In this document: positions 35,207 to 64,000 of the stretch, piece by piece
Layout of the letters: every line of letters starts with the position of its first letter
Position numbering within the stretch: position 1 is the stretch's first letter
From: Sphingopyxis sp.
GTDB taxonomy: Bacteria; Pseudomonadota; Alphaproteobacteria; Sphingomonadales; Sphingomonadaceae
NCBI RefSeq assembly: GCF_016793825.1
Contig: NZ_JAEULM010000044.1
Location: forward strand, 372,001 to 436,000
Length of the DNA stretch: 64,000 bases
Direction of reading: 5' to 3'
Made by a program: the position numbers and the translations under genes
Notes under the pieces: model-generated
Seen by the model: the letters and a program-made list of their open reading frames with translations, nothing else
Told to the model about the DNA's origin: nothing
Database searches by the model: none

Positions 35207-35209
35207 GGA

Positions 35210-36520: not shown

Positions 36521-36521
36521 G

Positions 36522-36824: not shown

Positions 36825-36829
36825 GGGCG

Positions 36830-41655: not shown

Positions 41656-41825
41656 GACATGGCCCCTGCAATGGACCGGGCGAACCGCCGCCCGGCGTCA
41701 GGAGCACATCAAGAGAGCCAGAAAATCGGCTTCTGCAATAGTTCGTTAGAGGCGTAGTAGAGGCGGCGGCACATACTTACCGAGTGCGGATCACATCCTC
41801 GGCCGAACCGACGATCTCGGGAAGT

Positions 41826-42251: not shown

Positions 42252-42260
42252 CACAGCCTC

Positions 42261-46008: not shown

Positions 46009-46123
46009 GGCCGGGCCGCTTTCGGTCGAAAATGGCCTGCGGTGCCATTCGAGGCGTTGTTTTCTCTGCCTTTTTTCTTCCGTGCGGCACGCGCGCCGAC
46101 CGACGCCCCCATGTGAAGCCACG

Positions 46124-46170
46124 GAAAAGCCAGAGCTTTTCGGCGAAACGGGGTGCGGCTTATATCTTGC
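46124..46170. other. Candidate origin of transfer (oriT) upstream of rlxS
   Basis: In the 238-base gap between rlxS and the lytic transglycosylase, an inverted repeat GAAAAGC/GCTTTTC (46124-46130, 46135-46141) lies 20 bases before TATATCTTGC (46161-46170). The latter resembles the P-type nic consensus ATC(C/T)TG-C cut by RP4/VirD2-like relaxases. Position beside the relaxase gene supports the call, but the exact nick site is inferred. Confidence 0.4.
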
Positions 46171-46246
46171 CCTCGCACCTCCCCCCAGTTTCCTGCCCTC
46201 CCGGTTCCCTTGTTGAATCCGGTGGCCGATCGGGAGCGAGCACCGG

Positions 46247-47011
46247 TCATTGCGGTCGGCCCGCGCGGGCGCGGGGAACGAACAACGTGTCCGCCTGCGT
46301 TTCCGGTGACGAAGGCACAGCGCCTTCTTGCGCTTCGGTAGGACGTGGCGCGATCGTTGACGGCGCATCGGATGTGTCGTCCGATTGCGCGGCCGGCGAC
46401 ACGGACCCGCTGCCTGTGATGCGGACGAACAGCGCCGCACGACGCCACGCGAAGCGATCCGGCGGCGCACTCACCGCCGTTTCGACCGCTCCCGGTGCGC
46501 CAACTACGGCCGTAAGTTGCGCGAGATAGCCGACCGTCTCGGCGGGCAGCGGGCGGCCGCGCGATACATAGTCATCGTAGCGCCCCGGTCCCGCATTATA
46601 GGCCGCCAGCATCGCGCTAGGATTGCCGTAGCGGTCGTGCATCTCGCGCAGATAAGCCGCACCCGCCATGATGTTGTCGCGCACGTCGAACGGGTCGGTT
46701 CCGAGACCGTAACGGGCGCGCAGCCCTGCCCAGGTCGCGGGCATGATCTGCATCAGCCCCATCGCGCCAGCCCGCGAGACGGCGCGCGAATTGCCTCGGC
46801 TTTCGACACGCATGACCGCCCAAATCCACACTTCGGGGATGCCGAACCGCCGCGCGGCGTCGGCGACATCGCCGGCGTAAGGATGTGCTGCGACCGGGAC
46901 GGCGACGGTCGCTTGTTGCGCCCAAGCCGTTCCCGGCGCAGCGCCACTGGACAGCAGAACGGCGGCAATCAATATGGCCGAACCGACTCCGCTTCGCCGC
47001 CAGCCTGCCAC
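46247..47011 (-). CDS. Lytic transglycosylase of the conjugation system (VirB1-like)
   Basis: A 254-residue secreted enzyme. With a GTG start at 47011 the N-terminus is a signal peptide (SAILIAAVLLSSGAAPGTAWA). The SLT domain follows: WIWAVMRVESRGN with the catalytic glutamate, GAMGLMQIMPATWAGL and YNAGPGRYDDYV. It opens peptidoglycan for the mating channel. A GTG at 47158 would add 49 low-quality residues; I consider it less likely. The C-terminal 60 residues are low-complexity. Confidence 0.87.
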   Translation of the reverse strand: MAGWRRSGVGSAILIAAVLLSSGAAPGTAWAQQATVAVPVAAHPYAGDVADAARRFGIPEVWIWAVMRVESRGNSRAVSRAGAMGLMQIMPATWAGLRARYGLGTDPFDVRDNIMAGAAYLREMHDRYGNPSAMLAAYNAGPGRYDDYVSRGRPLPAETVGYLAQLTAVVGAPGAVETAVSAPPDRFAWRRAALFVRITGSGSVSPAAQSDDTSDAPSTIAPRPTEAQEGAVPSSPETQADTLFVPRARAGRPQ

Positions 47012-47162
47012 CGTGCTCTCTGCGGTAAAGGGTTCGCGCGAAGCGCCGACCTTCGGCCGCCCTTGACCTCCGCTGCGCGCGTTGGCCGGCCTTGGGCCGA
47101 GCGGGACGAAGGGATGAGACGGCTTTCCCGCGAACAAAGGGATGAAGATGGATCGCACCGGC

Positions 47163-47530: not shown

Positions 47531-48088
47531 TCAAGGCCGAGCTGCACGCCACGTCAGCGGCGCTTCGGGGGTGTCGCGGGTGATGATCGGGATCGCGCGG
47601 CCGAGTACGGTTGAGGCTGGCAGCGGCCCGAAATAGCGACCGTCCAAGCTGTCGGGATGATCGGGGTTGAGCAGCAGCAGCTCACCGGCTGCGAGCGTGC
47701 GGCAACCTTGCCACGCGGGCAGCGGACGGCCGACCCGGTCCCGGATCAGGGCGACGGCAACCGCCCGCTCGTCAACGCTGACTGTGGCGCCGATCCGGCA
47801 AACGCGCTGCCCCGTCTTGGCGGCGACATGCTTCAACAGCGGCACGTCGTGGCCGAGATAGCCGCGCTCAGCCATCCAATGGCCGAGCCGTTCGGGCGGC
47901 GCGACGGCGATAAGCGCGCCAACGGGCGGATCGCTGTCGGGCCGTATGCGATAAAGGCCGAGGGGCGCGCTCGCGCTAGCGTTCCAGATGATGCGCGGCA
48001 GCGGATCGGTCAGCGCGACGGCAGCAAATGACAGGACAAACACTGACGCAGCGGCGGCGGTCGCGCGAAAATAGAAACGGCGCGTCAT
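47531..48088 (-). CDS. traF: TraF-type S26 signal peptidase
   Basis: A 185-residue inner-membrane serine peptidase: N-terminal membrane segment, then SASAPLGLYRI (serine nucleophile in the ASxPxGLY motif) and LLKHVAAKTGQRVC (lysine of the Ser/Lys dyad). In RP4, TraF matures and cyclises the TrbC pilin. It overlaps the DUF2840 gene by four bases. Confidence 0.92.
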   Translation of the reverse strand: MTRRFYFRATAAAASVFVLSFAAVALTDPLPRIIWNASASAPLGLYRIRPDSDPPVGALIAVAPPERLGHWMAERGYLGHDVPLLKHVAAKTGQRVCRIGATVSVDERAVAVALIRDRVGRPLPAWQGCRTLAAGELLLLNPDHPDSLDGRYFGPLPASTVLGRAIPIITRDTPEAPLTWRAARP

Positions 48089-48591
48089 CCCTCGATCTCC
48101 CGGCGCTTGAGCCAGGCGCGATGACGCTCCTGTGTGTAAGGACGCGGGATTTGTCCGGCGGCGATGCGGTTATGAACGTGCCGCCAGTGGTCGGGCGCGG
48201 CGTCGCACGGATCGACGCCGGCCGCCTCGGTCGCGTCGATCGCGACGAGCACTTGGCTGACCTTGGGCCAGCCCTCGACCTTGAGCAGGATGTCGCCACC
48301 CGGCCGCACGAACGGCAACGTGGTGAACGGCTCGCTCTTGCCGACCGCGCGCACGATGTCGATGCGCGAATTGATCGTGCCATAGTCGTTCGCCGCCCAG
48401 CGGACGAACGCGAAGATCGCGCCGGGCCGAAAGCGGACGATGCGGCGGCGGCGATCGACGATCTCGTCCACGGTAACGCGGCCAAACCTGATCCAGTGCT
48501 CGATCCGCTTCTCGATCCAGGTCAGTTCAACGCGGGTCATACCGTCGTCGGACGGCTGGTGGTGACGCATGGGTGACGGCGGGACGGTCAT
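48085..48591 (-). CDS. DUF2840 domain protein
   Basis: A 168-residue protein with the DUF2840 pattern TRVELTWIEKRIEHWIRFGR, FRPGAIFAFVRWAANDYGT and HVHNRIAAGQIPRPYT. Always near traF in Tn4371-like elements; function unknown. It begins in an ATGA overlap with the upstream HTH gene. Confidence 0.87.
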   Translation of the reverse strand: MTVPPSPMRHHQPSDDGMTRVELTWIEKRIEHWIRFGRVTVDEIVDRRRRIVRFRPGAIFAFVRWAANDYGTINSRIDIVRAVGKSEPFTTLPFVRPGGDILLKVEGWPKVSQVLVAIDATEAAGVDPCDAAPDHWRHVHNRIAAGQIPRPYTQERHRAWLKRREIEG

Positions 48592-48854
48592 CGCCGGCTC
48601 CGGGCGATGGCCGAATCCTTGCGCGGCATAAGGTCGTCCTGACCCGGATCGGACGTCGAATGCTTGATACCGATGTCGGCCCATGCTCGCAGGTCATCGA
48701 CCGAATAGACGACGCGACCGCCGATTCGGCGGTAAGCGGGGCCGGTGCCGAAATAGCGGTGTTTCTCCAGCGTGCGACCGGAAAGGCCAAGGAAGCGTGC
48801 GGCTTCCGGCGTGCGCAGGAAGCGGGGCGGCAAGTTGGTGGGCGTATCGGACAA
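48588..48854 (-). CDS. AlpA-like helix-turn-helix protein
   Basis: An 88-residue protein with a MerR/AlpA type winged HTH: PPRFLRTPEAARFLGLSGRT, then KHRYFGTGPAYRRIGGRVV. Such proteins act as excisionases or activators in mobile elements. The start appears to be TTG at 48854, supported by AGGAG eight bases upstream. In related elements repA and parA usually follow this gene; here DUF2840 follows immediately. Confidence 0.87.
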   Translation of the reverse strand: MSDTPTNLPPRFLRTPEAARFLGLSGRTLEKHRYFGTGPAYRRIGGRVVYSVDDLRAWADIGIKHSTSDPGQDDLMPRKDSAIARSRR

Positions 48855-48983: not shown

Positions 48984-49652
48984 TCAGCGGATGCGGAGCA
49001 GCTTGCGGTAGTCACCTTTCATCATGGCGATGCCATCACGGACTAGGCGAACCACGAATGACCGGGTCGCTGACATTTTCCAGTCGCTAGCGGAGAGCTT
49101 GGTCGCATCCTCGCGCCCCAGCTCGACCGCGATCTGGCGATAGGTTGCACCGCCATCACGCAAATCAAGGGCGCGGAGGATCAGGTTTAGGCGGGCCAAA
49201 CGATAGGGTGTGAGCGGCCAACCGCGCGGCAACGGACCGGCCTCCCGGCCGAGCAGCCGCCGATGGAAGCGCAACAGGGTGGCGATGCGGGTAACGAAGT
49301 CCCGGTCGAGCGGAACGATGGCGGCGAGCGGCCGGCCGGGTGTCGAGTTACGCAGCCACAGACGGTGCTCGCCGGCCGCGTCAGCGACAATGACATGGCG
49401 CCCGTCAATCCCCGCTAAGTCCGCGAGCAGCGCACCGAGCGTGCGTGGATCGACCGGCTGGGCGGTCGCGAAACCATCCGGCGCGGCGTCGAGGATGACG
49501 GTCACGGCGGACAGCTCTGGCCGCCAGATGATGGGGTCGGTCAGGTCATCCGGCGCCGTGGCGAAAGGATAACCCCCAATGCCGCGCGAACACCGTTTCG
49601 GCGGCGTTCTTGGCGACGGCGCCGTCTGCGATGCGCTGCTGCATCTGCGCAT
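48984..49652 (-). CDS. DUF2285 domain protein, N-terminus interrupted by frameshift
   Basis: The frame encodes a DUF2285 domain: LARLNLILRALDLRDGGATY, RQIAVELGRE, RSFVVRLVRDGIAMMKGDY ending RKLLRIR. Its upstream part (MRRCSSASQTAPSP) is not protein-like and lacks a ribosome site. The natural start is instead the DUF6499 gene just upstream, in another frame; see that entry. These proteins are thought to be DNA-binding regulators of the element. Confidence 0.75.
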   Translation of the reverse strand: MRRCSSASQTAPSPRTPPKRCSRGIGGYPFATAPDDLTDPIIWRPELSAVTVILDAAPDGFATAQPVDPRTLGALLADLAGIDGRHVIVADAAGEHRLWLRNSTPGRPLAAIVPLDRDFVTRIATLLRFHRRLLGREAGPLPRGWPLTPYRLARLNLILRALDLRDGGATYRQIAVELGREDATKLSASDWKMSATRSFVVRLVRDGIAMMKGDYRKLLRIR

Positions 49653-50665: not shown

Positions 50666-51070
50666 TCAGAACGGAATGTCATCGTCAAGGCCGTCGGAGG
50701 AGCCGCCGCCTGTCTGCGCGGGCTTTGACCGGCTCAGGAAGTCCACCGTCTCGGCGATGATCTCGCAGCCGTAGCGGTCAGCACCCTGTTGGTCGGTCCA
50801 CTTGGTATAGTGGATGCGGCCGCGGACCAGCACTTTCATGCCCTTCTCGCAATGCTCCTGAATGGTCTTGCCTAGGCCGTTAAAGGCGGTGATCCGGTGC
50901 CATTCAGTGTCCTGCACGCGATAACCGTTGTCATCCCGAACGACTTTGCCCTCCGAATAGCGGGGGCGCGAGGTTGCGAGGGTGAAGTGGGTGATATGGG
51001 TGCCGCCCTGCGTGGTGCGGCTTTCCGGATTCTGGCCGATGTTGCCGGCGAGTATGACGATGTTCTGCAT
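50666..51070 (-). CDS. ssb: Single-stranded DNA-binding protein
   Basis: A 134-residue SSB with an OB fold (MQNIVILAGNIGQNPESR, TEWHRITAFNGLGKTI, KVLVRGRIHYTKW) and the acidic partner-binding tip DDDIPF. Element-borne SSBs protect DNA arriving in the recipient. The ribosome site is weak, and the 5-prime leader contains hairpins described separately. Confidence 0.95.
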   Translation of the reverse strand: MQNIVILAGNIGQNPESRTTQGGTHITHFTLATSRPRYSEGKVVRDDNGYRVQDTEWHRITAFNGLGKTIQEHCEKGMKVLVRGRIHYTKWTDQQGADRYGCEIIAETVDFLSRSKPAQTGGGSSDGLDDDIPF

Positions 51071-52179: not shown

Positions 52180-52196
52180 CGCCCGAAGTGTCGGGC

Positions 52197-52760: not shown

Positions 52761-53702
52761 TTACGCGCCGCCACGCTGCCGAAAGTCCCAGACCTTGATG
52801 CCCATAGCCTTGGCCTTGTCGCGGATGTTGTCCTGAATGCCGGTGCCGGGAAAGACGACGAGACCCTTCGGCATCGTTTCAAGCACATCGTCATTGCGCT
52901 TGAACGGCGCGGCCCGCTTGTGCTTGTCCCAATCGGGCTCGAAGGGGACGCTCGGGACGCCGCGATTGTCCGCCCACAGGACGGAGATGTGCTCGCCGCC
53001 GGTGCCGGTCGCGCCATGCAGCAGCACCATGTCGGGGAACTTCGCCTTGATCCGGTCCAGCGTCGCGAAGATGAAATTGACATCGTTGAACGCCGGACCC
53101 GAGGAGACCGCAATGCGGGTGCCGGGCGGCATGAGCACCTGCTTGTCGGCCCATTTGCGCGCATTGATGAAGTCGCGGCTGGAGATAACCGCCGAGGTGA
53201 GCGCCTTGCGGTTGACCTTCGAGCCGGAGCGCGGCGTCCAGGCTTTGCGGATATGGATGCGGTAGTGATCGGCGCAGGCGTCGCGGAAGAACTCCATCGC
53301 GTCCCGGCGCTCGATCATGGTCGCGCCCTCGCGCAGCAGCCGCTCCAGCTCGACCGACTTCACCTCGGAGCCATCCTGTTCGCGCTGGCTGCGCTTCTGG
53401 GCGAACTCGTTGTCGTCCAACTCGCGCTCGATCCGTTCGCCGGCGCGCTGGAAGACGTTGGTGATGTTCCAGAGCAGATCTTCAAGATCGGGTTCGAGCC
53501 GCGTGTCGATCAGGCACGAAACCATCGCGTCGAAGATGTCGGCGACTGCACCCTCGGCCGAGCGGGAGTCGGGGAGCGGGCGCTGGTCGGGCTCGTCCTC
53601 GAAGGGCCGGTATCCGTAAAGGGCCATCTCCTGAAGCAAGTACGCGGTGGGGGATTCCTCGTGCTCGGGTTCATGGTCGGGAAGCGGATTGTCGGTTGTC
53701 AT
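52761..53702 (-). CDS. DUF2493 (SLOG-like) domain protein
   Basis: A 313-residue protein. The N-terminal half is acidic and helical (ESPTAYLLQEMALYGYRPFE, RIERELDDNEFAQKRSQREQ). The C-terminal DUF2493 domain (about 205-313) contains RIAVSSGPAFNDVNFIFATL, VLLHGATGTGGEHISVLW and GIQDNIRDKAKAMGI: a Rossmann-like fold of the SLOG superfamily that binds nucleotides or their derivatives. Such proteins recur in alphaproteobacterial plasmids beside the helicase and Toprim genes found here. The start at 53702 is preferred over 53717. Confidence 0.82.
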   Translation of the reverse strand: MTTDNPLPDHEPEHEESPTAYLLQEMALYGYRPFEDEPDQRPLPDSRSAEGAVADIFDAMVSCLIDTRLEPDLEDLLWNITNVFQRAGERIERELDDNEFAQKRSQREQDGSEVKSVELERLLREGATMIERRDAMEFFRDACADHYRIHIRKAWTPRSGSKVNRKALTSAVISSRDFINARKWADKQVLMPPGTRIAVSSGPAFNDVNFIFATLDRIKAKFPDMVLLHGATGTGGEHISVLWADNRGVPSVPFEPDWDKHKRAAPFKRNDDVLETMPKGLVVFPGTGIQDNIRDKAKAMGIKVWDFRQRGGA

Positions 53703-53781
53703 GGCGACGCCTCTCATCGGTTGACCGCGCCCTCCGCGGCCTTCGCAGGCGTCGAAAGACGGCGGGCGAACCGGGCCTGCA

Positions 53782-53811
53782 CCGCCAACCCCGCCCCTCG
53801 CGGGGTGGCGG
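53782..53811. repeat. Twelve-base-pair hairpin upstream of the DUF2493 gene
   Basis: Arms 53782-53794 and 53800-53811 pair fully apart from a single bulged A. It lies 80 bases before the DUF2493 start and 26 bases from a larger palindrome. Confidence 0.6.
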
Positions 53812-53836
53812 CCAAGCGCAGCGCCGGACGGCAGGG

Positions 53837-53900
53837 CGGCGGCTAATTTGTTTCGCGATGCAAAGCGGCCGCTCGCGGCCGCGGCGGAAATTAGCCGCCG
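53837..53900. repeat. Cruciform-like palindrome between Toprim and DUF2493 genes
   Basis: Perfect 13-base arms (53837-53849 and 53888-53900, CGGCGGCTAATTT and complement) enclose 38 bases that contain a second inverted repeat, GCGGCCG/CGGCCGC. No T-run follows. It might be a terminator, a binding site for the ParB-like protein, or a replication/transfer site. Confidence 0.6.
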
Positions 53901-54052
53901 AACGCCGTTGCCGGGCCGGGGCGGCTGTCGTCCCGAACGCCTCTCAAGAAGGCAGCAAGGGCGCGGGCCTCTCCGATGATCGCAAGCGTCACCGCAACCG
54001 GCAGGCCGGACCTTGCCGAACCCCGAGCCGAAGCCCACGCCGCCTTTCCGGC

Positions 54053-55117
54053 TCAGCCGGGCATGGCCAGGAAACGGCCCGCATCCTCGGGGACGAGCTG
54101 CCCCGCCAGCGCCGCCGCCATCCGCTCGGCCCCGACCAGGCGCAGATCCTCGTTGAAATCGCCGAGCATGGGCGAGAGCGGCACGACCTCGATCCCGGCC
54201 CCGGAAGCCCGCTCGGTCAACCTCGCCAACGCAGCGTCGCCGGCCGGATCGTCGTCGCGGCCGACATAGAGGCGTCGGAGCGCGGACGGGAACAGGATGG
54301 CTCCAAGGTGGGGCGAGGACAGCGCGGCGATCATGGGCATGGCGGGCATGACCTGACGCAGCGACAGGATGGTCTCGATGCCTTCGCCGGCCGCCATCAC
54401 CGCATCCGGTCTGCCGAAGCGGACACCGTGCCCAAGAAGGAAACCCATCGCGCGCCGAGGCGTGACCACCGGCGCCTTGGTCGATGTGGCAGGGTCGAGC
54501 CAGGTGCGATGAACGCCGGTGATCGCGCCGCCCTCATCGGTGACGGCGGCGATCATGGCAGGCCATGCGCGGCGGGTTCCGGGCAAGTCCTTCCGCGACG
54601 GGGTGTAGTAGCAGCGCGGGTGGAAACGGAGCGGATCGTCTGCCCGCAGGGCCGTGATCGCGCGTCCCCGCAGATAGGCTTGAGCGAGCGATCCACGGAC
54701 AGGCCCGGACGCGGCGAACAGGCGCTTGGCGGCCTGCGGCGAGCCGGTGGGCGCGTTCGGCTCACGCGCATGGCCGGGACCATCGGCGCAAGGCTCGGGA
54801 TGCGGCAGGCTGAGGAAGCTGCGCGCCTCGTCCAGCGTGTCGCGGAGCTGCGAATGGCCGCAGGCGAGCGCGATGATGTCGAGCAGGTCGCCATGCTCGC
54901 CGGTCGCGGCATCGGTCCATTTGCCGGCCGCGCCCCGGCCATCCTCCGAGCCGGACAGCCGCACATAGAGGCTGCGCCCCGGCGTGTTGTGGGCATCGCC
55001 GACCAGCCAATAGCGGCCTTCGCGATGCCCCTTCGACAGGTAATGACGGCAAACCGCCTCGGCCCGATCGCCGAGACGGTTTGCGAGTTCGCCTGCCTGA
55101 TCCGACAGCCGGCCCAT
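54053..55117 (-). CDS. Toprim domain, plasmid primase-like protein
   Basis: A 354-residue protein. The N-terminal part (RAEAVCRHYLSKGHREGRYW, HGDLLDIIALACGHSQ) resembles the zinc-free DUF7146 of plasmid primases. The C-terminal Toprim domain has AVMAAGEGIETILSL with the conserved glutamate and LYVGRDDDPAGDAAL with the DxD motif. It probably makes primers or otherwise acts on DNA during replication or transfer. The ATG at 55117 lies in a TGATG overlap with the helicase stop. Confidence 0.85.
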   Translation of the reverse strand: MGRLSDQAGELANRLGDRAEAVCRHYLSKGHREGRYWLVGDAHNTPGRSLYVRLSGSEDGRGAAGKWTDAATGEHGDLLDIIALACGHSQLRDTLDEARSFLSLPHPEPCADGPGHAREPNAPTGSPQAAKRLFAASGPVRGSLAQAYLRGRAITALRADDPLRFHPRCYYTPSRKDLPGTRRAWPAMIAAVTDEGGAITGVHRTWLDPATSTKAPVVTPRRAMGFLLGHGVRFGRPDAVMAAGEGIETILSLRQVMPAMPMIAALSSPHLGAILFPSALRRLYVGRDDDPAGDAALARLTERASGAGIEVVPLSPMLGDFNEDLRLVGAERMAAALAGQLVPEDAGRFLAMPG

Positions 55118-58100
55118 CACGCGACCGCCCGGTCGGCGATGCGCTGGAGCGGCCAGCGATCCATCAGGCGCTTCAGCACGGCCACGCCGACGGCATCGAC
55201 GGGGACGAACATCCTGAGCGACCAGGAGATGATCTCATGGAACAGGCCGTAGGCGGTCAGCCGCTCGCGCATGGCGTCGGTGAAGCCGGTCAGCTCGATC
55301 CGGTAGGCGTTCATCACGCGCACGCGGCGAAGCTGGAGACCTTCAGCGAGGTCGAGCACGGTGCGCCCGTCCATCAGCGCGGCGAAGGCGGCTTGCGGGT
55401 CGAGGCTCGGCCCATCGTCATTGGCGGTCGCCGTCGCCACCCAGGCGGGCGACACCCGGCGGCCGACGATCCGCTCGCCATCATCGGTCTGGAGCCGATA
55501 GACGCGCGTGGATTCGTTCGGCAGGCGCTTCCAGATCGGGAGCAGCAGGCCCGTGACGATGTGCATGGTGCTGGTGGCGAACTCCGGCACCTCGGCCAGT
55601 TCCGCCTCCCAGGCGCGGGCGAAGTCCGCCCGGCTCGCCTCGCGCCATTGCGTCTGCGCCATCGCCTCCAGCGGCATCGGCGTCGATTCCATCGGCCGGA
55701 CCAGCCGCACGCGGCGTTCGACGCTGCCGTCGTCGAGCAAAGCGCCCTTCGTCGGTATCTGCACGGCCGCACGGCCCGATTGTGCGTTGACCAGCAGGAC
55801 CGCGCGCGGGTCCGACAGCCGGTCGAGCGCGTCGTCCAGTGTGAGGGGCCGATTGCGGTCTTTGCGTTCCATCGTCAGCAACCTCGTCTCCGCCGTGGTG
55901 CCCGGATGGGTATAGATGGTGCTCCGCTCGGCGATCGTGAAGCTCTCGGCCTGGAGCGTCTCCAGTCCCAGCTCGTAGGTTCCCGACGCGACGGCGCCCT
56001 CGATGCGGGCGGTCAGCAAGTCCTCGAACGCGGTGAACAGGACATTCTGCAAGTCGATGGTGAGCGCCAGCATCCGGTTGAGGAAAGTGGTGATCGGCGG
56101 CAGCTCGTCCTTGAGGCCGGTGTCGTCGCGCAGGCTGAGACCCGTCGCCTCCTCAAAGGCGAGCAGCGAACATCCCTCGACCTTGCCCGCATAGAGCAGG
56201 CGATAAAGCTGGCGCAGCGCATCGCGCGCATATTGCGATTCCAGATTATCCTCCGGCCGGAACAGCCCCTGGCCGCCGGTCTGGCGCTGGCCGCGCGTGA
56301 TCGCGCCCAGCGTGTCGAGCCGGCGTGCGATGGTCGAGATGAAGCGCTTTTGCGCCTTCACGTCGGTCGTAACCGGCCGGAACAGCGGCGGCTGCTTCTG
56401 ATTGGTGCGGTTGGTGCGGCCGAAGCCCTGGATGGCGTTGTCGGCCTTCCAGCCCGCTTCCAGAAGATAGTGGACACGCAGCCGCTGGTTCCTCGCGCCG
56501 AGGTCGGCGTGATAACTGCGGCCAGTTCCCCCCGCGTCGGAGAAGATCAGGATGCGCTTGGCGTCGCTCTGGAAGGCGTCGGTCTCGCCGACATTGGCCG
56601 AACCCGGCCGGCTCTCGACGACATAGCGGTCGATCCCGTCCGATCCGCGCCGCTTGACGATCCGCCGCGAACGGCCCGTCACCTCAGCAACCATATCGGT
56701 CCCGAAGTGGTGGAGAATCTGGTCGAGCGCGGCCGGCACCGGCGCCAGCGAAGCCAGATGCTCGATCAGTCGGTCCCGGCGGGCGGCCGCCTCGCGGGAC
56801 TCGACCGGATTGCCATCCGGGTCGGTGACGGGCCGGGACGACAGATTGCCCTCGCTGTCGGTGAACGGCTCGTAGAGCTGCACCGGGAAGCTGTGTTCGA
56901 GGTAGGACAGGACATATTCGCGGGGTGTCACGTCCACGCGAACGTCGTCCCATTCCTCGGTCGGGATGTCGGCCAGCCGGCGTTCCTGCAATGCCTCGCC
57001 GGTCGAGACGATCTGGACGACGGCGCTGTGGCCGGCCGCCAGGTCACGCTCGATGCTGGCGATCAGCGAAGGCGTCTGCATCGCCGTGATGAGGTGATTG
57101 AAGAAGCGCTGCTTGGCCGATTCGAAGGCGCTGCGTGCCGCCGACTTGGCCTGGGCGTTGAGCGTGCGGGTCGCGCCGGTGATGTTGGCGGCCTGCATCG
57201 CCGCGTCCAGATTGTTGTGAATGATCTGGAACGCGCCCGCATAGGCGTCGTAGATGCCGATCTGCGCTCGCGTCAGCGCATGTTCGAGCATCTCATACTC
57301 AACGCCGTCGAAGGACAGCGAGCGGGCGGAATAGAGGCCGAGCGCCTTGAGGTCGCGGGCCAGCACCTCCATCGCCGCGACGCCGCCGTCCTCGATCGCC
57401 GCGATGAACTCGCTGCGCGTGGCGAAGGGGAAATCCTCGCCGCCCCACAGGCCGAGGCGCTGGGCATAAGCGAGATTCTGCACGGTGGTCGCGCCGGTGG
57501 CCGAGACATAGACGACGCGGGCATCGGGTAGCGCGTGCTGGAGCCGAAGCCCGGCGCGGCCCTGCTGCGAGGGCGCCTGCTCGCCGCGATCGCTGGTGCC
57601 GCCGGCCGCGTTCGCCATCGCGTGCGCCTCGTCGAAGACGATCACGCCGTCGAAGTCCGCGCCCAGCCAGTCGACGATCTGCTGCACGCGGCTCGCCTTC
57701 GCGCCGCGTTCCTGCGACCGCAGGGTGGCGTAAGTGGCGAACAGGACGCCCTCATCCAGCGTGATCGCCGTGCCCTGCCGGAAGCGGGAGAGCGGCGTCA
57801 CCAGCAGGCGCTCCTGGCCGAGCGCCTCCCAATCGCGCATGGCGTCCTGATGCAGGGTCTCGGAACGGCTGATCCAGACGGCGCGGCGGCGGCCTTTCAG
57901 CCAGTTGTCGAGGATGATGCCCGCGACCTGGCGGCCCTTGCCCGCGCCGGTGCCGTCGCCGAGGAACCAGCCCCTACGGAAGCGCACGGCTTTCTCAGCA
58001 TCGTCCGGCGCGGCGGTGACGCCATCCCAGCTATCATCGACCGTCCACGCTCCGGCGAGATGGCCGCCATGCGCCTCGCCCGCGAGGATCACGGATTCGA

Positions 58101-59481
58101 GCTGGGCGTCCGACAGGATGCTGTCGGTGACGAGGTTCGCCGGCAAGGTCGGCCGATAGCTCGGCTTGGGCGGCGAGACCGACGCCATCGCCGCCGATTG
58201 GACCAGCGGCGTCGGATGAGGCTTGGCGCCGTCGATGCGCAGCGACTGGAGCGCATAGGGCTCGTAGATCGCATCGGTCAGACGGCCGGCTTCGGCGGGC
58301 GTCCAGTCAATTGCCTCATAGGCCAGCTCCGCCGCCTCCGGCAGTACGATGGGCGCGGGCGTGGCTGGCCTGGCATGGCGGCGGACGGCGGGCTTCGCCG
58401 ACATCGCCCGCATGGCGACGGGCAGCGCCACCGGCATGGCGGGCGGCGGCGCGTCGGGGCCGGACCCACGCGGAGGCACATGGTCGAGCACCCAACCGAG
58501 CAGGGTCGCGGTGTCGGGCGCAACACCCGGCGAGGCCGGGAAGACGGAAGGATCATCGGCGGGAACGCGCTCGATGACGGTCAGGCGCGTGTCGATGGTC
58601 GTGCCGTGCTTGGCATAGACGCGGCCGTCGATCGCAGCGGAAAACAGGACGCGCCCGCGCTCCTGAAGCCCGATGAAGCTGTCGGTCCAGGTGGAATTGT
58701 CGGGCGCGCAGCTCGCCCCGGTGATCGCGATCAGGCGGCCGCCCTCGGCGAGCCGGGCCAGCGCCGACCCGATATGGCGCAGCGCCGCGTCCTTCATCGT
58801 GCGATCGACATGGGCGACGGCCGAGAAAGGCGGGTTCATCACCACCACGCTCGGCACGATGTCGGCGCGCAGATAGTCATGGATATGCGCGGCGTCGTGG
58901 CGGGTGACGGGGCAATCGGCGAAAAGCCCCGCGAGCATCTCGGCGCGGATCTCGGCCAGCTCGTTGAGAACGAGGCTGCCCCCGCGCGTCTCAGCCTGGA
59001 CCGCGAGGAGCCCGGTGCCGGCGGAGGGTTCGAGCACCAGATCGCCCGGCCCGATCGCGGCCGCGACAGTGGCGACGAAGCCCAGCCCGGCCGGGGTCGA
59101 GAATTGCTGGTACGCTTGGCTGGTCTCGGAGCGGCGCGTATGGGTGGGGAGCAGCGCCGCCACCTTCTCGATCATCGCCAGCGCGGCGAGCGGCGAGGCG
59201 GATTTACGCAGGACCGGGCCGCCATATTTACGCAGGAACAGAACCTGCGCGGCTTCGCAGGCGTCGTAGGCGGTCTTCCAGTCCCAGGCGCCATCGGCGT
59301 CCGAGCCGCCAAAAGCGGTCTCCATCGCCGAGCGCAGGGCGCGCGCGTCGATGGCGCGGCCCCGTTCGAGGTCGGGCAGGATGAGCGCGGCGGCGGCAAG
59401 GATGGACCGGGCGGTCGCGGCGAAACCGGGCGCGACGGGAAACGGCGCCGCCGAACGGGCAGCGGGAGCAGCAAGAGTCAT
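55117..59481 (-). CDS. Strawberry-notch-like methyltransferase-helicase
   Basis: A giant 1454-residue protein. Residues about 100-290 form an N6-type DNA methyltransferase: LEPSAGTGLLAV (SAM motif I) near 147 and VVMNPPFS (motif IV) near 215. From about 480 it is a superfamily 2 helicase of the strawberry-notch class: Walker A-like FLGDGTGAGKGRQVAG near 510, VIVFDEAHAM near 613 and AIQGFGRTNRTNQKQPP near 1020. The last 300 residues match no domain I recognise. P1 DarB and related methylase-helicases have the same order and act against host restriction, which is a possible role here. The start at 59481 is used; it has AAGGAC upstream. Confidence 0.87.
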   Translation of the reverse strand: MTLAAPAARSAAPFPVAPGFAATARSILAAAALILPDLERGRAIDARALRSAMETAFGGSDADGAWDWKTAYDACEAAQVLFLRKYGGPVLRKSASPLAALAMIEKVAALLPTHTRRSETSQAYQQFSTPAGLGFVATVAAAIGPGDLVLEPSAGTGLLAVQAETRGGSLVLNELAEIRAEMLAGLFADCPVTRHDAAHIHDYLRADIVPSVVVMNPPFSAVAHVDRTMKDAALRHIGSALARLAEGGRLIAITGASCAPDNSTWTDSFIGLQERGRVLFSAAIDGRVYAKHGTTIDTRLTVIERVPADDPSVFPASPGVAPDTATLLGWVLDHVPPRGSGPDAPPPAMPVALPVAMRAMSAKPAVRRHARPATPAPIVLPEAAELAYEAIDWTPAEAGRLTDAIYEPYALQSLRIDGAKPHPTPLVQSAAMASVSPPKPSYRPTLPANLVTDSILSDAQLESVILAGEAHGGHLAGAWTVDDSWDGVTAAPDDAEKAVRFRRGWFLGDGTGAGKGRQVAGIILDNWLKGRRRAVWISRSETLHQDAMRDWEALGQERLLVTPLSRFRQGTAITLDEGVLFATYATLRSQERGAKASRVQQIVDWLGADFDGVIVFDEAHAMANAAGGTSDRGEQAPSQQGRAGLRLQHALPDARVVYVSATGATTVQNLAYAQRLGLWGGEDFPFATRSEFIAAIEDGGVAAMEVLARDLKALGLYSARSLSFDGVEYEMLEHALTRAQIGIYDAYAGAFQIIHNNLDAAMQAANITGATRTLNAQAKSAARSAFESAKQRFFNHLITAMQTPSLIASIERDLAAGHSAVVQIVSTGEALQERRLADIPTEEWDDVRVDVTPREYVLSYLEHSFPVQLYEPFTDSEGNLSSRPVTDPDGNPVESREAAARRDRLIEHLASLAPVPAALDQILHHFGTDMVAEVTGRSRRIVKRRGSDGIDRYVVESRPGSANVGETDAFQSDAKRILIFSDAGGTGRSYHADLGARNQRLRVHYLLEAGWKADNAIQGFGRTNRTNQKQPPLFRPVTTDVKAQKRFISTIARRLDTLGAITRGQRQTGGQGLFRPEDNLESQYARDALRQLYRLLYAGKVEGCSLLAFEEATGLSLRDDTGLKDELPPITTFLNRMLALTIDLQNVLFTAFEDLLTARIEGAVASGTYELGLETLQAESFTIAERSTIYTHPGTTAETRLLTMERKDRNRPLTLDDALDRLSDPRAVLLVNAQSGRAAVQIPTKGALLDDGSVERRVRLVRPMESTPMPLEAMAQTQWREASRADFARAWEAELAEVPEFATSTMHIVTGLLLPIWKRLPNESTRVYRLQTDDGERIVGRRVSPAWVATATANDDGPSLDPQAAFAALMDGRTVLDLAEGLQLRRVRVMNAYRIELTGFTDAMRERLTAYGLFHEIISWSLRMFVPVDAVGVAVLKRLMDRWPLQRIADRAVA

Positions 59482-59523
59482 GGCGAATGTCCTTGAGGAG
59501 AGCCGGGAGGGAATGGGCCACCG

Positions 59524-59579
59524 GACGCTCTCTCTCGATCCGGCCGACCCGCCCGTTCCCGGTCCGCCTCTCACTCTCT
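59524..59579 (-). promoter_or_regulatory. Shared leader element, copy ahead of the helicase gene
   Basis: Two blocks, GACGCTCTCTCTC (from 59524) and CCTCTCACTCTCT (59567-59579) as read on the plus strand, occur 43 bases apart. The same pair at the same spacing lies ahead of the ParB-like gene, and the first block also lies ahead of the unknown gene at 60533-61057. Confidence 0.5.
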
Positions 59580-59656
59580 TGCAGTCGCGTGCGGTCAGAA
59601 CACATCGGACACGCCGATCACCGCGCCGCGACGAATCCGGTCTCCAATCGCCGGAC

Positions 59657-59694
59657 AAAAAAAGAGCCCGTCCCCGGCCGAAGCGGGGACGGGC
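59657..59694 (-). terminator. Intrinsic terminator after the DUF7007-like gene
   Basis: Perfect ten-base arms (GCCCGTCCCC and complement; 59666-59675 and 59685-59694) with a nine-base loop are followed on the minus strand by a seven-T run (59663-59657), with two or three bases between. It separates the DUF7007-like gene from the helicase unit. Confidence 0.88.
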
Positions 59695-59705
59695 CATGCT
59701 GAAGG

Positions 59706-60536
59706 TCAGGTATCGGGAGCGATCGGCAGCGCCCAGGTCTCGTGCCGGGCTTCGTCGATGACGAACCCATGCGGGCCGGGAGAATATTCCGCCGCGGGCA
59801 CGAGAAAGCCGCGCAACGGCCTCCGTTCACGCTTGCCGCCGAGCGCCGCGACGCACTCCACGAACCCCGGCGAAGTCTGCGACCGGCTGGCCGAGACGAC
59901 GATCCAGTCCTGGGCGTGGGCCTCCTCGAACAGGCGACGATCGTTCGAGAAGGATTCGCCCGGCGCGAGGGGCCGGCCGTGGACGGCTTCCCAGCGTTGG
60001 GGATAGGTATCGCGCAGGGTCTTCTCGGCGATGCGGCGCTCGTAGGCGGTGAACAGTTCGGGAAAGCCGCACGCGACCATCGCCCAATCGCAATCCTCCT
60101 CATACCAGCCACCCTCGATGCGAAGCGCGGCGGGCATCGCCGCGTTGCGGGCGTCATCGAGATTGAAGCCGCCATGGCTGGCGGTGACATGGAAGACGAC
60201 GCCCTCGGCATAGACCGAGCCGCCCTGCGACGCGCCCCAGGGACTCCAGCGATCGGATGCCCGGTGCTGCCGGTCGAGCGCGATCATCTCGCGCCGATGC
60301 TCGACCTGCTCCGCGACGAGCGCCCGAAACTCCGCTTCGTCGGCGATCGCGTCGCCGAAGCCGGAGAAGTCGGCCCGCCGCCACTCGGCGATGGGCCGGT
60401 TGATCCGCCAGGCGCTCGCGAGGCGGAAGCCATCGTCGACCGGCAGCGCGAGATAGGCGTTGTCGCCGACCTGCGCCGCGAGATACTGATCGGCGGTGCG
60501 GCCATAGACGGCTTCGATCGGAGCGGCGGCGTTCAT
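59706..60536 (-). CDS. DUF7007-like protein of unknown function
   Basis: A 276-residue protein: EAVYGRTADQYLAAQVGDNA, GVVFHVTASHGGFNLDDARN and GWYEEDCDWAMVACGFPELF. The GGF..D and the paired Glu/Asp in EEDCDW look like a conserved core. I recall similar proteins named DUF7007 in alphaproteobacterial plasmids and elements, but no activity is known. It overlaps the upstream gene by four bases and is followed by an intrinsic terminator. Confidence 0.7.
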   Translation of the reverse strand: MNAAAPIEAVYGRTADQYLAAQVGDNAYLALPVDDGFRLASAWRINRPIAEWRRADFSGFGDAIADEAEFRALVAEQVEHRREMIALDRQHRASDRWSPWGASQGGSVYAEGVVFHVTASHGGFNLDDARNAAMPAALRIEGGWYEEDCDWAMVACGFPELFTAYERRIAEKTLRDTYPQRWEAVHGRPLAPGESFSNDRRLFEEAHAQDWIVVSASRSQTSPGFVECVAALGGKRERRPLRGFLVPAAEYSPGPHGFVIDEARHETWALPIAPDT

Positions 60537-61057
60537 GCCGCCCTCCCGACCGGGATGGCGCCGGCTTCATCGTCGCCGACGATCTCGGCGATGGGATCGC
60601 AATAGCGGTTCTTTGCCATCCAAGCCTCCGCCTCGGCCATGTCGGACGCAAGGCGATGCAGTTCGGCGCCGCCCTTGCGGCGCGAGAGAACGCGGACCAT
60701 TCCAGGCTTCGGCAGGTCGATGATCTCGAAGCGCAGGAACGTCGTGACATCGAAGACATGGTTGACCACGAGGATGACCGTGCCCTCGGACCCATAGGCC
60801 CCGTCGCGAAGCGTGATCGTTGCGGGATAGAGGAAACTGCCCGACCAGGGGGCGGTCTTCGCGTTGAGGCGGCCGACGCCATTGAAGCGTTGCCAGGTCC
60901 GCAATTTGCGGGTGAAGCGTTCCGGCGGCCTTGGCGTCCCGTCGAAATAGCGCAGGGTCGCGCCCAACGGAACGCGATCATAGACGGCATTGCCGTCAAG
61001 CGGGGGCGCAGCGGATGCGCCCGCCGGAGCGGCGGGAACGGTGGCGGAATATGTCAT
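60533..61057 (-). CDS. Hypothetical element-associated protein
   Basis: A 174-residue soluble protein with a basic RYFDGTPRPPERFTRKLRTW region and a hydrophobic TVILVVNHVFDVTTFLRFEI strand pair; FNGVGRLNAKTAP and FLYPATITLRDGAYGSEGTV suggest a beta-rich fold. No family was recognised. GGAG precedes the ATG, which follows one copy of the shared leader block. It is coupled to the DUF7007-like gene. Confidence 0.7.
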   Translation of the reverse strand: MTYSATVPAAPAGASAAPPLDGNAVYDRVPLGATLRYFDGTPRPPERFTRKLRTWQRFNGVGRLNAKTAPWSGSFLYPATITLRDGAYGSEGTVILVVNHVFDVTTFLRFEIIDLPKPGMVRVLSRRKGGAELHRLASDMAEAEAWMAKNRYCDPIAEIVGDDEAGAIPVGRAA

Positions 61058-61096
61058 GGCGGTTCTCCGGGAGAGCGGGAAAGGAGCGAGCCGTCC

Positions 61097-61153
61097 GGCG
61101 CTCTCTCTCCATCCGGCCGGCTCACCCGGCCCCCGGCTTTCCTCGGGCTCTGG
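61097..61153 (-). promoter_or_regulatory. Shared leader element, copy ahead of the 174-residue protein gene
   Basis: GGCGCTCTCTCTC (from 61097, plus strand) followed by ATCCGGCC, then a less conserved CCTCGGGCTCTGG at about 44 bases. It matches the helicase leader closely in the first block. Confidence 0.45.
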
Positions 61154-61188
61154 CCGCCGGCCCCGTTATGGGACCGGCGGCGCGCGGC

Positions 61189-61383
61189 TCAGTCGGTGAG
61201 CTTGCCGGCCGCGATGTCGGCGATCCATTCGGCGGCCTCGTCGAAATCGGCGTCGCCGTCGTCGACCTGCCGCGCCAGCGCGACGGCGCCCGATCGGCCG
61301 AGCTGGCCGAGACGCTGAATGGCGGCGAGCAGAACGGGCGCGAGCGCCTCGGCGTCCGCCAGGGCGATATCGTCGATCTTCAT
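61189..61383 (-). CDS. Small acidic hypothetical protein
   Basis: A 64-residue acidic protein (MKIDDIALADAEALAPVLLA, QVDDGDADFDEAAEWIADIA) with an AGGAGA ribosome site. The family is unknown. It lies alone between tandem terminators and the shared leader, probably expressed with the following genes. Confidence 0.6.
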   Translation of the reverse strand: MKIDDIALADAEALAPVLLAAIQRLGQLGRSGAVALARQVDDGDADFDEAAEWIADIAAGKLTD

Positions 61384-61442
61384 GGGATTCTCCTATGTTG
61401 GAATTGGAAGCCGCTGGCCGGAAGTGGCCCGGCGGCCATGCG

Positions 61443-61466
61443 AAAAGGCCCGGCGCTCGGCCGGGC
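61443..61466 (-). terminator. Second intrinsic terminator downstream of the ParB-like gene
   Basis: GGCCCGGC pairs with GCCGGGCC, followed by four T on the minus strand. It backs up the stronger terminator at 61477. Confidence 0.7.
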
Positions 61467-61476
61467 CATTGGGCGC

Positions 61477-61507
61477 AAAAAAGGGGCGGAGCGGCCGAAA
61501 CCGCCCC
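61477..61507 (-). terminator. Intrinsic terminator of the ParB-like gene
   Basis: GGGGCGG (61507-61501) pairs with CCGCCCC (61489-61483), followed by six T (61482-61477) on the minus strand, 12 bases after the ParB-like stop codon. Confidence 0.88.
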
Positions 61508-61518
61508 GCCCGATGCAG

Positions 61519-63672
61519 CTATTCCGCCGCGATGGCGTAGGCCGAGCCGGGCTCGTCCTCATCGCCGTCGTCGCCATCCTCGCCGAGGAACGCCGGGAGC
61601 GCCTCGCCGTCGGCGGCCGTGTCCGCGATCGGCAGGACGGGATCGACCTCCGGCATCCTCAGCGGTTCGGGAAGCCAGCCGGAATCGGCCAGCAGCCGCT
61701 CGGCTTCGCGGGCCATGTCGCCCTTCTTGAGGTGGTCGATCAGCCCGGCCTTCTGCGGCTCGGTGCCTTCGGCGACCGCTTCGAGGATGCGCGGCTTGGT
61801 GATGCGGCCGAGATAATTCTCGTAGGTCGGCCGCCAGCCCGTCACCGCCATGTCGAACCCGATAGCGCGGGCCAGGACATTGGCGTGCTCGATCCGGCGC
61901 GCGACGCCATGCGCCGAGACGCGGCCACCGCCATGCTTGGGGACCGGCTCCCATTGCGCGTTCACCGCATAGGCCGCGCAATGGGCGAACAGCGCCGCTT
62001 GGTCGGCGCCGTCGAGCTGCTGGATCGCGTCCCATGCATCCTTGTCGGACTTGGGAAGCCGCGCCTTCCAACCGGCGTGGCGTTCCTCCATCGCCTTCGC
62101 CGCCGCGCTTTCCCGCAGGCCCGGCGCCTGGAACGGGAAATAGACGCGGGAAACCGACAGCTCCAGGCAGGTCTCCGTCCGCACCTGATAGAAGGTGGTG
62201 AGCACCATCGCGTGCAGCACGGCGGCGAAGGCCACCGAGGGGTTCTGCGCGAAGGCGTCCTGCAGCGCGACCGTGCGGGATGCGGTCAGTTCGGCCACCA
62301 GCCTGTCCGGTAGCGGCTTGATGACTTCATCGTCGTCTTCGTCGCTGTCGGTGGCGACGGGCGCGACCGCGCCACCAAGCCTCTCGGAACCCGCCTGCAC
62401 GGCGATGTCCGCCGGTTCATCGCCGGTCGCCTCGATCTCCTCATCGGTCTCCTCGTCGTCGGTTTCGACGGCTTCCTCCTCCGGCTCATCCTCCGGCCGC
62501 ACATAGCCGCGGTCGATGTAGAGGGTGCCGTCAGCTTCGAGGCCGACGAACACGCCGGCGCGAGCCTGCTCCTGCGCGTCGTAGGTGCGGCGACCCTGCG
62601 ACAAGGCGGCCAGCTCGACATCGATGGCGGTGACGCGGGCATCGACCTCGGCCGGGACGTCGCCCTTGCCCGCCCACTGTTCCTCCAGCGCATCGGCCTC
62701 GGCGCGAAGCTCGGCGATGCGGGCTTCGTCTTCCTCGGTCGGCGGCTCGCGGGTGGCTTCGATCGCGCGGCAGTCCGCGTCGTAACCATAGGGCAGATCG
62801 ACCAGCGCCTCGACCCACTTCCAGCCTTCGGCCCTGATCCTGTTGGCCTCGGCGTCGAGCTTCTCGGCGACCAGGCGGTCGAGCAAGGCCGGATCGGTCA
62901 GCCAGCCGCCGTCATCGGGCTCGAACAGGTCGCGCGTCGGCGCCACGCCGCCCGCCGCGAGATAGGCGTCGAGACCGACGAACCGCACGCGGGCATCGGA
63001 CATCTCCACCATATCCTCGGTCAGCTTGTCGCGGATGAAGCTGGGCGACTTGTTGATGCTGTGGTCGAGCTGCTTCCAGAGCTGCTCCTGGCGGGCATGA
63101 TCGTCGCTGACGGTGAAGGCCATGAGCTGATCGAGAGTCATGTCGCCGGCGACATAGACCTCGTGCAGCGTCGGCGAGACCGCGGCGAGCTTCAGCCGCT
63201 GACGCACCACGGCCGGCGTGACGCGGAAGTGCGCGGCGATGGCCTCCTCGCGCTCACCCTTGTCGATCAGCACCTTCATGCCGTGAAACTCGTCGAGCGG
63301 GTGGAGCGGCTCGCGCTCGCTGTTTTCCGCAAGCGAGTCCTCCTCGGCCAGGACCGGATCGTTGGCCGCCTTGACGACGCAAGGCACCAGCGCATCCTTG
63401 GCCATCCGCTTGCGCTTCACGAGGATCGCCAGCGCGCTGTAGCGGCGGCCGCCGGCGGGCACCTCGAAGAAGCCGGTTTCGGCGCCGTCGTCATCGAGCT
63501 GCGGGCGGACATTGAGGCCGTGCAGCAGGCTGCGGCGCGCGATGCTGTCGGCAAGGTTCTCGATCGTCACGCCGTTCTTCACCCGGCGGACGTTCGATTG
63601 GGACAGGATCAGCTTGTCGAAGGGAATATCCCGCGACGGGCTGAGAACGATCTTGGCGGCAGCTTTTGCCAT
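61519..63672 (-). CDS. ParB/RepB/Spo0J-like domain protein (717 residues)
   Basis: A large protein whose first 200 residues are ParB-like: KLILSQSNVRRVKNGVTIEN, FFEVPAGGRRYSALAIL (ParB-N/sulfiredoxin-like box), ENSEREPLHPLDEFHGM and an HTH ITVVRQRL-like region (VTPAVVRQRLKLAAVSP). The remaining 500 residues are much longer than in partition ParB proteins and include an acidic stretch (EEEAVETDDEETDEEIEATG). No ParA is in the window. It may act as a nuclease or regulator rather than in partition. GGAG precedes the start. Confidence 0.87.
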   Translation of the reverse strand: MAKAAAKIVLSPSRDIPFDKLILSQSNVRRVKNGVTIENLADSIARRSLLHGLNVRPQLDDDGAETGFFEVPAGGRRYSALAILVKRKRMAKDALVPCVVKAANDPVLAEEDSLAENSEREPLHPLDEFHGMKVLIDKGEREEAIAAHFRVTPAVVRQRLKLAAVSPTLHEVYVAGDMTLDQLMAFTVSDDHARQEQLWKQLDHSINKSPSFIRDKLTEDMVEMSDARVRFVGLDAYLAAGGVAPTRDLFEPDDGGWLTDPALLDRLVAEKLDAEANRIRAEGWKWVEALVDLPYGYDADCRAIEATREPPTEEDEARIAELRAEADALEEQWAGKGDVPAEVDARVTAIDVELAALSQGRRTYDAQEQARAGVFVGLEADGTLYIDRGYVRPEDEPEEEAVETDDEETDEEIEATGDEPADIAVQAGSERLGGAVAPVATDSDEDDDEVIKPLPDRLVAELTASRTVALQDAFAQNPSVAFAAVLHAMVLTTFYQVRTETCLELSVSRVYFPFQAPGLRESAAAKAMEERHAGWKARLPKSDKDAWDAIQQLDGADQAALFAHCAAYAVNAQWEPVPKHGGGRVSAHGVARRIEHANVLARAIGFDMAVTGWRPTYENYLGRITKPRILEAVAEGTEPQKAGLIDHLKKGDMAREAERLLADSGWLPEPLRMPEVDPVLPIADTAADGEALPAFLGEDGDDGDEDEPGSAYAIAAE

Positions 63673-63701
63673 GTCGGTTACTCCATGACGAGCCGCCGCG
63701 A

Positions 63702-63757
63702 GACACTCTCTCGGCTATCCAGCCCGTCACGAAACCGAAGGCCCCCTCTCACTCTCT
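63702..63757 (-). promoter_or_regulatory. Shared leader element, copy ahead of the ParB-like gene
   Basis: GACACTCTCTC (from 63702) and CCTCTCACTCTCT (63745-63757), plus strand, exactly 43 bases apart as in the helicase leader. Confidence 0.5.
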
Positions 63758-63787
63758 CCTGCGCTGCCGGGGCCGCCACGCCCGACG

Positions 63788-64000
63788 CTAGACGCCGCAC
63801 ATGCCCTCGCACTCATTGCCCCAGAGATCGAGCTGACCGCGATCGGCCGGGGTGCTGAGATCGGCTTGGTCGAGCGGCACGGCCGAGCGGTGCAGATACA
63901 CCTCGCCCCGGATGCCGCGCAGACCGGTGCGGATCGCGCGGTCCACCACGACTGCTTCGCCCCAGGCTTCGGGATCGTGATCGCGGATCTCGCGCCAGCG
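63788..64000 (-). CDS. Probable PAPS-reductase-like protein, C-terminal fragment
   Basis: Seventy residues before a TAG stop are visible: RWREIRDHDPEAWGEAVVVD, RAIRTGLRGIRGEVYLHRSA, VPLDQADLSTPADRGQLDLW, then GNECEGMCGV. The Cys-containing GNECEGMCGV tail and the YLHRS motif match the end of PAPS-reductase-family proteins (adenine-nucleotide alpha hydrolases) that often neighbour ParB-like proteins, as in the IbrA/IbrB pair. The catalytic part lies beyond the window, so the family call is tentative. Confidence 0.55.
   Translation of the reverse strand, partial: RWREIRDHDPEAWGEAVVVDRAIRTGLRGIRGEVYLHRSAVPLDQADLSTPADRGQLDLWGNECEGMCGV

Follow-up and report, generated by a model that had tools for sequence, protein, structure and literature searches.

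What purpose is served by the row of genes that closes a 64,000-nucleotide stretch of the Sphingopyxis sp. genome (the window; positions 372001-436000 of contig C43, in a genome of 3.86 Mb)? A preliminary description had listed here a SLOG/DUF2493 protein, a Toprim protein, a methyltransferase-helicase, a DUF7007-like protein, two unknown proteins, a long ParB-like protein and a probable PAPS-reductase-like protein (PAPS-like below), and had suggested that together they mark DNA chemically, or protect incoming DNA, rather than simply maintaining a plasmid. The row, referred to here as the block, lies within an integrated conjugative element that has Trb secretion genes, a TraG and a DUF3363 relaxase. 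We consider it probable that the block is a leading-region entry module of this element, with a DarB-like methylase-helicase and an exchangeable accessory position.

A methyltransferase-helicase in a conserved gene row

The methyltransferase-helicase (Table 1) has a C-terminal Strawberry-notch helicase of the SWI2/SNF2 clade, matched by PF13872 (AAA_34, E 3.5e-122) and PF13871 (Helicase_C_4, E 2.6e-96). The adenine methyltransferase motifs QQFSTP (TP), LEPSAGTG (motif I) and NPPF (NPPY/F) were invariant in five of five aligned proteins, and the motifs of both domains are intact. With PADLOC the methyltransferase part also resembled mad2, from the MADS defence system (E 4.9e-8), which we read as a shared methyltransferase domain; solved structures gave no match up to E 0.1. 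The architecture resembles the DarB-type dyad of Iyer et al. 2017 (PMC5512222), an adenine methyltransferase with N-terminal TP and NPPF fused to a SWI2/SNF2-clade helicase, and the Strawberry-notch type in mobile elements is mentioned there for DarB-type dyads too. Fusions of this kind have been proposed to travel along incoming DNA while methylating it, and the DarB-type fusion has been tied to anti-restriction (PMC5512222). Unlike that dyad, the window protein consists of these two domains only and has its own gene within the conserved row, outside any giant polyvalent protein.

The row itself differs somewhat from the one first described. Its eight proteins had been said to be encoded in one direction; seven of them are present, all on the minus strand, but of the two unknowns just one is, since at a cut-off of 90 amino acids a single plausible gene, U174, stands between DUF7007 and ParB. 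No family match to U174 was found in Pfam, NCBIfam, PADLOC or PHROGs. The block also extends beyond these genes, to a single-stranded DNA-binding protein (SSB) on the left and to a ParE-family toxin gene and a serine recombinase on the right. The PAPS-like gene, severed by the window end, proved complete once the sequence was extended to the right, as had been advised, and occupies L003:15788-16687 of the host contig on the minus strand (63788-64687 on the window scale).

Conservation was followed in two sets of loci, 97 in all. Set 1 held the best 80 of 420 confirmed methylase-helicase relatives in the genome collection, which are closer homologues; set 2 held 17 regions from 16 of the 26 methylase-helicase genomes found among 385 evenly drawn genomes of Alphaproteobacteria, and was picked to include the six other genomes with a PAPS-like gene, so that PAPS is over-represented in it. 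Since many loci were without full flanks, absence was scored only in testable loci, those with at least 7.5 kb upstream for ParB, ArdC and PAPS or at least 3 kb downstream for Toprim and DUF2493. Of the 84 loci testable upstream of the methylase-helicase, 76 had ParB there (61/67 in set 1; 15/17 in set 2); of the 83 testable downstream, 81 had Toprim (67/68; 14/15) and 79 had DUF2493 (66/68; 13/15). All matches to ArdC (45), PAPS (7), ParB (88), Toprim (99) and DUF2493 (84) across the 97 loci shared the strand of the methylase-helicase, as did matches to SSB (14), RovC (38), S26 (19), SLT (11) and the relaxase (4), and likewise, without exception, those to DUF2840, DUF7007 and U174, the last matched in 8 loci and once more in plasmid L224. 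Opposite-strand exceptions were confined to two recombinases and one match to a different, plasmid-type ParB query. This recurrence of same-strand neighbours is beyond chance, and the block is conserved as a unit. The methylase-helicase was furthermore matched in 683 of 72,556 plasmid records.

Upstream of the methylase-helicase the gene content varies. The 84 testable loci held ArdC in 41 cases, a DUF932-like protein in 14, a PAPS-like protein in 7 and an ArdB-type protein in 5; two of the seven PAPS loci and three of the five ArdB-type loci also had ArdC, and ArdC and the DUF932-like protein never occurred together. ArdB-type genes were present in 6 of the 97 loci overall, and for the gene that plasmid L018 has between ParB and the methylase-helicase Pfam gave PF03230 (Antirestrict). 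For the ArdC examples scanned it gave ArdcN and a polyvalent-type metallopeptidase (MPTase-PolyVal). The relatives' blocks often carry, upstream, a homologue of the ArdC of R388, a protein reported to be necessary in recipients with restriction (PMC7213743).

Predicted origin of transfer and direction of entry

The interval between the transglycosylase and the relaxase is predicted to contain the origin of transfer (oriT); here, on the plus strand and within an inverted repeat, lies the nic-like sequence TATATCTTG|CCC. The nick position and the strand direction follow the nick rule of MOBP relaxases, which we presume to apply. Among 17 transglycosylase-relaxase intervals, the coding-strand motif GGCARGATWWA occurred in strict form in 12, and in 14 when the one-base variant GGCAAGATGAA was counted; 500 Markov resamples gave a mean of 0.002 and a largest value of 1, compared with the 12 observed. 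Because the motif was first read from six of these intervals, the other 11 make the fair test, and 6 of them held the strict motif (8 with the variant). The RP4 nic word ATCCTGY was uninformative, with 25 matches in the window against 15.3 expected and none in the predicted oriT.

Given the predicted nick strand, the plus strand would lead towards the block, which would thus lie on the leading side of oriT, and its minus-strand genes would use the plus strand as template; the strands were consistent in the 97 loci. Genes for anti-defence proteins, methyltransferases and SSB are described in leading regions, in an orientation that allows transcription from the strand that enters (PMC11541004). 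Like the leading-region anti-defence islands reported there (Samuel et al. 2024), the present block combines a position next to the predicted oriT with SSB, a methyltransferase, a presumptive entering-strand template and, in relatives, anti-restriction genes. Unlike islands with such genes, the window copy itself has no known anti-restriction gene, and Strawberry-notch and Alphaproteobacteria have 0 occurrences in the main text of that survey.

The wider element resembles the ICEMlSymR7A family (PMC8627217, PMC11963761) in its trb genes, TraG, relaxase, traF-like and msi107-like genes and in the gene order around oriT, which in ICEMlSymR7A was placed between msi107 and rlxS (PMC11963761). It differs in having a large serine recombinase at a tRNA-Arg, where the family has IntS. 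The available sections of these two papers do not discuss a block of the window type.

With genes for SSB, ParB and a primase-like Toprim protein adjoining the methylase-helicase, the block reads as an entry kit, and a sequence of events can be proposed. The relaxase would nick the plus strand at 46169, and that strand would enter the recipient, led by the side that carries the block. Early in the recipient, the methyltransferase-helicase and ParB would be produced together with SSB, the SLOG protein and the primase-like Toprim protein, and the incoming strand would be coated and primed. In the manner proposed for DarB, the methyltransferase-helicase would travel along this strand and methylate adenine so that restriction enzymes cannot cut, and ParB may spread on the element DNA and help to load or organise the block proteins. 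The exchangeable position upstream of ParB is filled in relatives by ArdC, a DUF932-like or a PAPS-like protein and here by the PAPS-like one, which might add a second protection step based on sulphur chemistry or on an iron-sulphur cluster. What the sequence shows directly is the genes with their order and strand, their conservation, the intact motifs and the surrounding element; the nick site and direction, early expression, methylation of incoming DNA and the parts played by ParB and the PAPS-like protein are inferred. Protection of incoming DNA, one of the roles suggested earlier, is the best-supported role, given the DarB-type methyltransferase-helicase, the ArdC/ArdB neighbours in relatives and the predicted leading-side position, and the window copy may itself protect in this way.

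Several points weigh against this reading. The nick site was located from sequence alone, with a motif derived in part from the intervals in which it was then counted, and three of the 17 intervals (L195, L197 and L201) have neither GGCARGATWWA nor its variant. No single-stranded DNA (Frpo-like) promoter was identified. As for the accessory position, 22 of the 84 loci have none of ArdC, PAPS, DUF932-like or ArdB upstream; among 72 representative open reading frames from the slot between ParB and the methylase, two match Antirestrict and the whole set matches only 12 families; and ArdC is missing from the window's contig, all three ArdcN matches in the host being on contigs C36 and C17. The likeness to DarB was drawn from motifs and domains, and the phage search yielded only four partial matches, all to the methyltransferase part.

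If the entry-module reading is correct, a gene row present on many alphaproteobacterial plasmids and integrated elements would be a conjugation entry kit, of a type unmentioned in the sections available of the leading-region survey (PMC11541004). DUF2493, DUF7146, DUF7007, U174 and this type of ParB would gain a testable role, as would PAPS-reductase-like proteins, which in phages are usually considered sulphur-metabolism genes. In the open literature searched (subscription papers and preprints not covered), 'strawberry notch' was met, among the papers listed, only in PMC5512222, and no paper joined ArdC with PAPS reductase or DUF2493 with 'conjugative'.

The PAPS-like gene and competing explanations

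In the draw of 385 genomes the PAPS-like gene was found in 7 (E 1e-20) and the methylase-helicase in 26 (E 1e-50). All seven PAPS genomes are among the 26, with both genes on the same contig and strand and PAPS 0.2 to 10 kb upstream of the methylase-helicase. The probability of this overlap by chance is 2.8e-9, and leaving out the window's own genome raises it to 4.1e-8, relatedness not being allowed for. The closer homologues of set 1 had a PAPS-like gene in just 1 of 67 testable loci (L093, where the frame is apparently degraded). It was also present in 185 of 72,556 plasmid records, 110 of them from Agrobacterium, and in 44 of 50,697 phage records. We viewed 11 of these plasmid records (9 from Alphaproteobacteria, 2 others) and 2 of these phage records. 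ArdC stood just upstream of PAPS in seven of the nine alphaproteobacterial plasmids (overlapping stop and start in five, a small gene between in one, unannotated in one), the remaining two adjoining ParB; in two plasmids, fragments of DUF7007 and U174 relatives lay upstream of the ArdC-PAPS pair. The Streptomyces and Lysinibacillus plasmid records had no ArdC. This distribution over genomes, plasmids and phages makes the PAPS-like gene an accessory that mobile elements share; in Alphaproteobacteria it goes with either ArdC or this block.

Two further arrangements were seen. Ti plasmid L165 has two ArdC-PAPS pairs (2943-4819 and 11108-12867), the first behind a ParB-type gene, and in four PAPS genomes (L178-L181) a DUF2285/RovC-type gene is immediately upstream of PAPS.

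The predicted structure of a viral relative is a PP-loop protein (pLDDT 89.5, pTM 0.84), and the solved folds closest to it, at TM-scores of about 0.4, are those of PAPS reductase and of LarE, the latter with a [4Fe-4S] cluster. Four cysteines were invariant, and two nearly so, among 42 relatives. The PADLOC profile for SspD matched all 42 viral relatives (best E 4.5e-18) as well as the window protein (E 2.2e-7); the DndC profile was absent from the PADLOC matches. Pfam and NCBIfam gave no match to the window protein at E 0.001, and NCBIfam matched the 42 relatives only weakly, the PAPS reductase model in 3 and, most frequently, a beta-lactamase model in 6, which at E 0.0059 or worse was taken as chance. 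Among solved structures the sole match, a weak one, was to a chain called PptA (E 1.3 with the single protein, 0.0033 with the profile). By its profile match and the predicted fold of a relative the protein appears to be an SspD-like PP-loop protein, and its role probably involves sulphur handling or iron-sulphur chemistry. In the PP-loop, the conserved cysteines and the SspD profile match it is like SspD and DndC of the phosphorothioation systems (PMC7188994, PMC11662687, PMC10853773); the cluster of DndC requires C280 (PMC11662687), and a PAPS-DndC resemblance in phages has already been remarked (PMC8092301).

These features also bear on whether the PAPS-like protein, with ParB, marks the element by phosphorothioate or other sulphur modification. 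Its fold, cysteines and SspD match would suit such a role, and in the window, as in L164, L178, L180 and L181, PAPS is the gene immediately upstream of ParB; in L182, however, it comes after ParB. Unlike in the Dnd/Ssp systems, no partner was recognised beside it: PADLOC, run on ten proteins from the block and around it, found no DndD/E, SspB/C or other second component, while a search for SspB/DUF4007 (0 of 7 genomes) was uninformative, its control giving 0 of 14. Moreover, 77 of 84 loci keep the rest of the block without PAPS, the TM-scores are only near 0.4, and a nucleotide reductase or a tRNA-type sulphur transfer enzyme would share the fold, so we regard sulphur marking as improbable. 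A pairing of the IbrA/IbrB kind, evoked earlier, would have the PAPS-like and ParB-like proteins jointly activate transcription. The two genes are indeed adjacent in the window, but this ParB is long and canonical (motifs GGRR and SLAEN; closest solved chains Spo0J/ParB) and belongs to the core surroundings of the methylase-helicase, being present in 76 of the 84 loci as against 7 of 84 for PAPS. It thus occurs mostly without PAPS, which often follows ArdC instead; the window PAPS-like protein had no IbrA family match in NCBIfam at E 0.001, and 63 viral PAPS loci held no relative of the window ParB at E 1e-4, a search that a short IbrB-like domain could escape. The pairing is unsupported because ParB is canonical and mostly found alone in this sense, and we set it aside as scarcely credible.

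Maintenance of the excised circle is a more serious contender, though still an unlikely one. ParB, SSB, Toprim and helicase would serve its replication, second-strand synthesis and stable establishment, and the methyltransferase would only mark element DNA for timing or self-recognition. Replication or partition is the business of SSB, of a canonical ParB and of a primase-like Toprim, and plasmids carrying the block have RepA/ParA genes near it. Yet this account leaves the methyltransferase-translocase fusion unexplained, and genes for ArdC or ArdB often lie nearby. The genome has six AAA_31 ParA matches, none of them on the window's contig (other ParA families not searched), for which reason ordinary ParABS partition was rejected. 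The earlier judgement that the block does more than maintain a plasmid is supported. Within the entry-module reading, a bolder proposal is that the PAPS-like protein is an unrecognised leading-region anti-restriction factor, SspD-like and probably with a [4Fe-4S] cluster, that would add or remove sulphur on the incoming single strand, beside or in place of ArdC and beside the DarB-like methylase-helicase; it would be common to MOBP elements and Ti-type plasmids, its family reaching phages. We hold this to be speculative and rather doubtful.

The element, its borders and other conserved features

Table 1. Features of the block and of the conjugative element (window coordinates)
Feature	Position	Strand	Basis or remark
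Trb/VirB-type secretion genes and TraG coupling protein	32302..44234	-	TrbI, VirB8, TrbL, TrbE-like ATPase, T2SSE ATPase, T4SS-DNA_transf
DUF3363 relaxase	44251..46008	-	PF11843, PF03432; start 46008 set by inspection
Predicted oriT	46009..46246	+	nic-like TATATCTTG|CCC, predicted nick after 46169; between transglycosylase stop and likely relaxase start
Transglycosylase (SLT)	46247..47158	-	PF01464
S26 signal peptidase (TraF-like)	47531..48088	-	PF10502
DUF2840 protein	48085..48684	-	PF11000
DUF7012 + RovC DNA-binding protein	48984..49652	-	domain matches
SSB (single-stranded DNA-binding protein)	50666..51070	-	PF00436, TIGR00621
DUF2493/YAcAr SLOG protein	52761..53702 (open reading frame to 54038)	-	PF10686 E 1.8e-22; likely start 53702, 313 amino acids
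DUF7146 + Toprim_3 protein, primase-like	54053..55120	-	PF23639, PF13362; PHROG DNA primase
Methyltransferase + Strawberry-notch helicase	55117..59481 (open reading frame to 59697)	-	PF13872, PF13871; likely start 59481, 1454 amino acids
DUF7007 protein	59706..60536	-	PF22653 E 2.6e-48
U174, 174-amino-acid protein of no recognised family	60533..61057	-	open reading frame; matches in relatives
Long ParB-like protein, 717 amino acids	61519..63672	-	phrog_7783 E 4.1e-82 over nearly full length; weaker ParB matches; motifs
PAPS-like PP-loop gene, 3' part	63788..64000	-	PHROG 424 E 1.5e-47; PADLOC SspD E 2.2e-7

On the left the block is followed by SSB, the DUF7012/RovC gene, DUF2840, S26, the transglycosylase, the relaxase, TraG and the Trb-type genes, each of them minus-strand. 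The DUF7012 and RovC/DUF2285-type protein at 48984-49652 occupies the position where related elements have FseA-type activators. To the right, a small open reading frame precedes the ParE-family toxin gene on the plus strand, after which comes the large serine recombinase (L003:17876-19576, from 65876 on the window scale). It resembles cassette recombinases (NCBIfam CcrB model, score under the model cut-off), and its reading frame stops inside a tRNA-Arg(ACG) at L003:19532-19608 (to 67608 on the window scale), which its 3' end overlaps. Past the tRNA-Arg the genes look ordinarily chromosomal. No second copy of the tRNA-Arg 3' region, and hence no left border of the element, was found in contig positions 352001-472000 (exact 15-mers; near matches not above background).

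Two non-coding stretches near SSB are conserved, and an Rfam scan of the window gave no match. A structured leader on the minus strand (52126-52320) lies just before a small open reading frame (51969-52133) for a protein of 55 amino acids. Among the loci examined, 41 sequences, one of them the window, contained 43 copies in all, and in 39 of the 43 the leader is followed by a protein of 54-57 amino acids of one recognisable type; two divergent copies are on the Ti-type plasmids L165 and L166. Its T-strand fold has a z of -3.43, its outer stem pairs with the ribosome-binding region, and covariation is modest, with double changes in 3 of 10 consensus pairs. As a candidate single-stranded DNA promoter (Frpo/ssi), the leader hugs the start of one small gene. 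The second stretch (51075-51284), immediately before SSB, is present in 16 sequences including the window and is not unusually structured (z -0.23).

Further to the left, at 13203-29363 of the window, the element carries copper-resistance cargo: CopB, a multicopper oxidase, a heavy-metal P-type ATPase, and HlyD-type and AcrB-type efflux genes.

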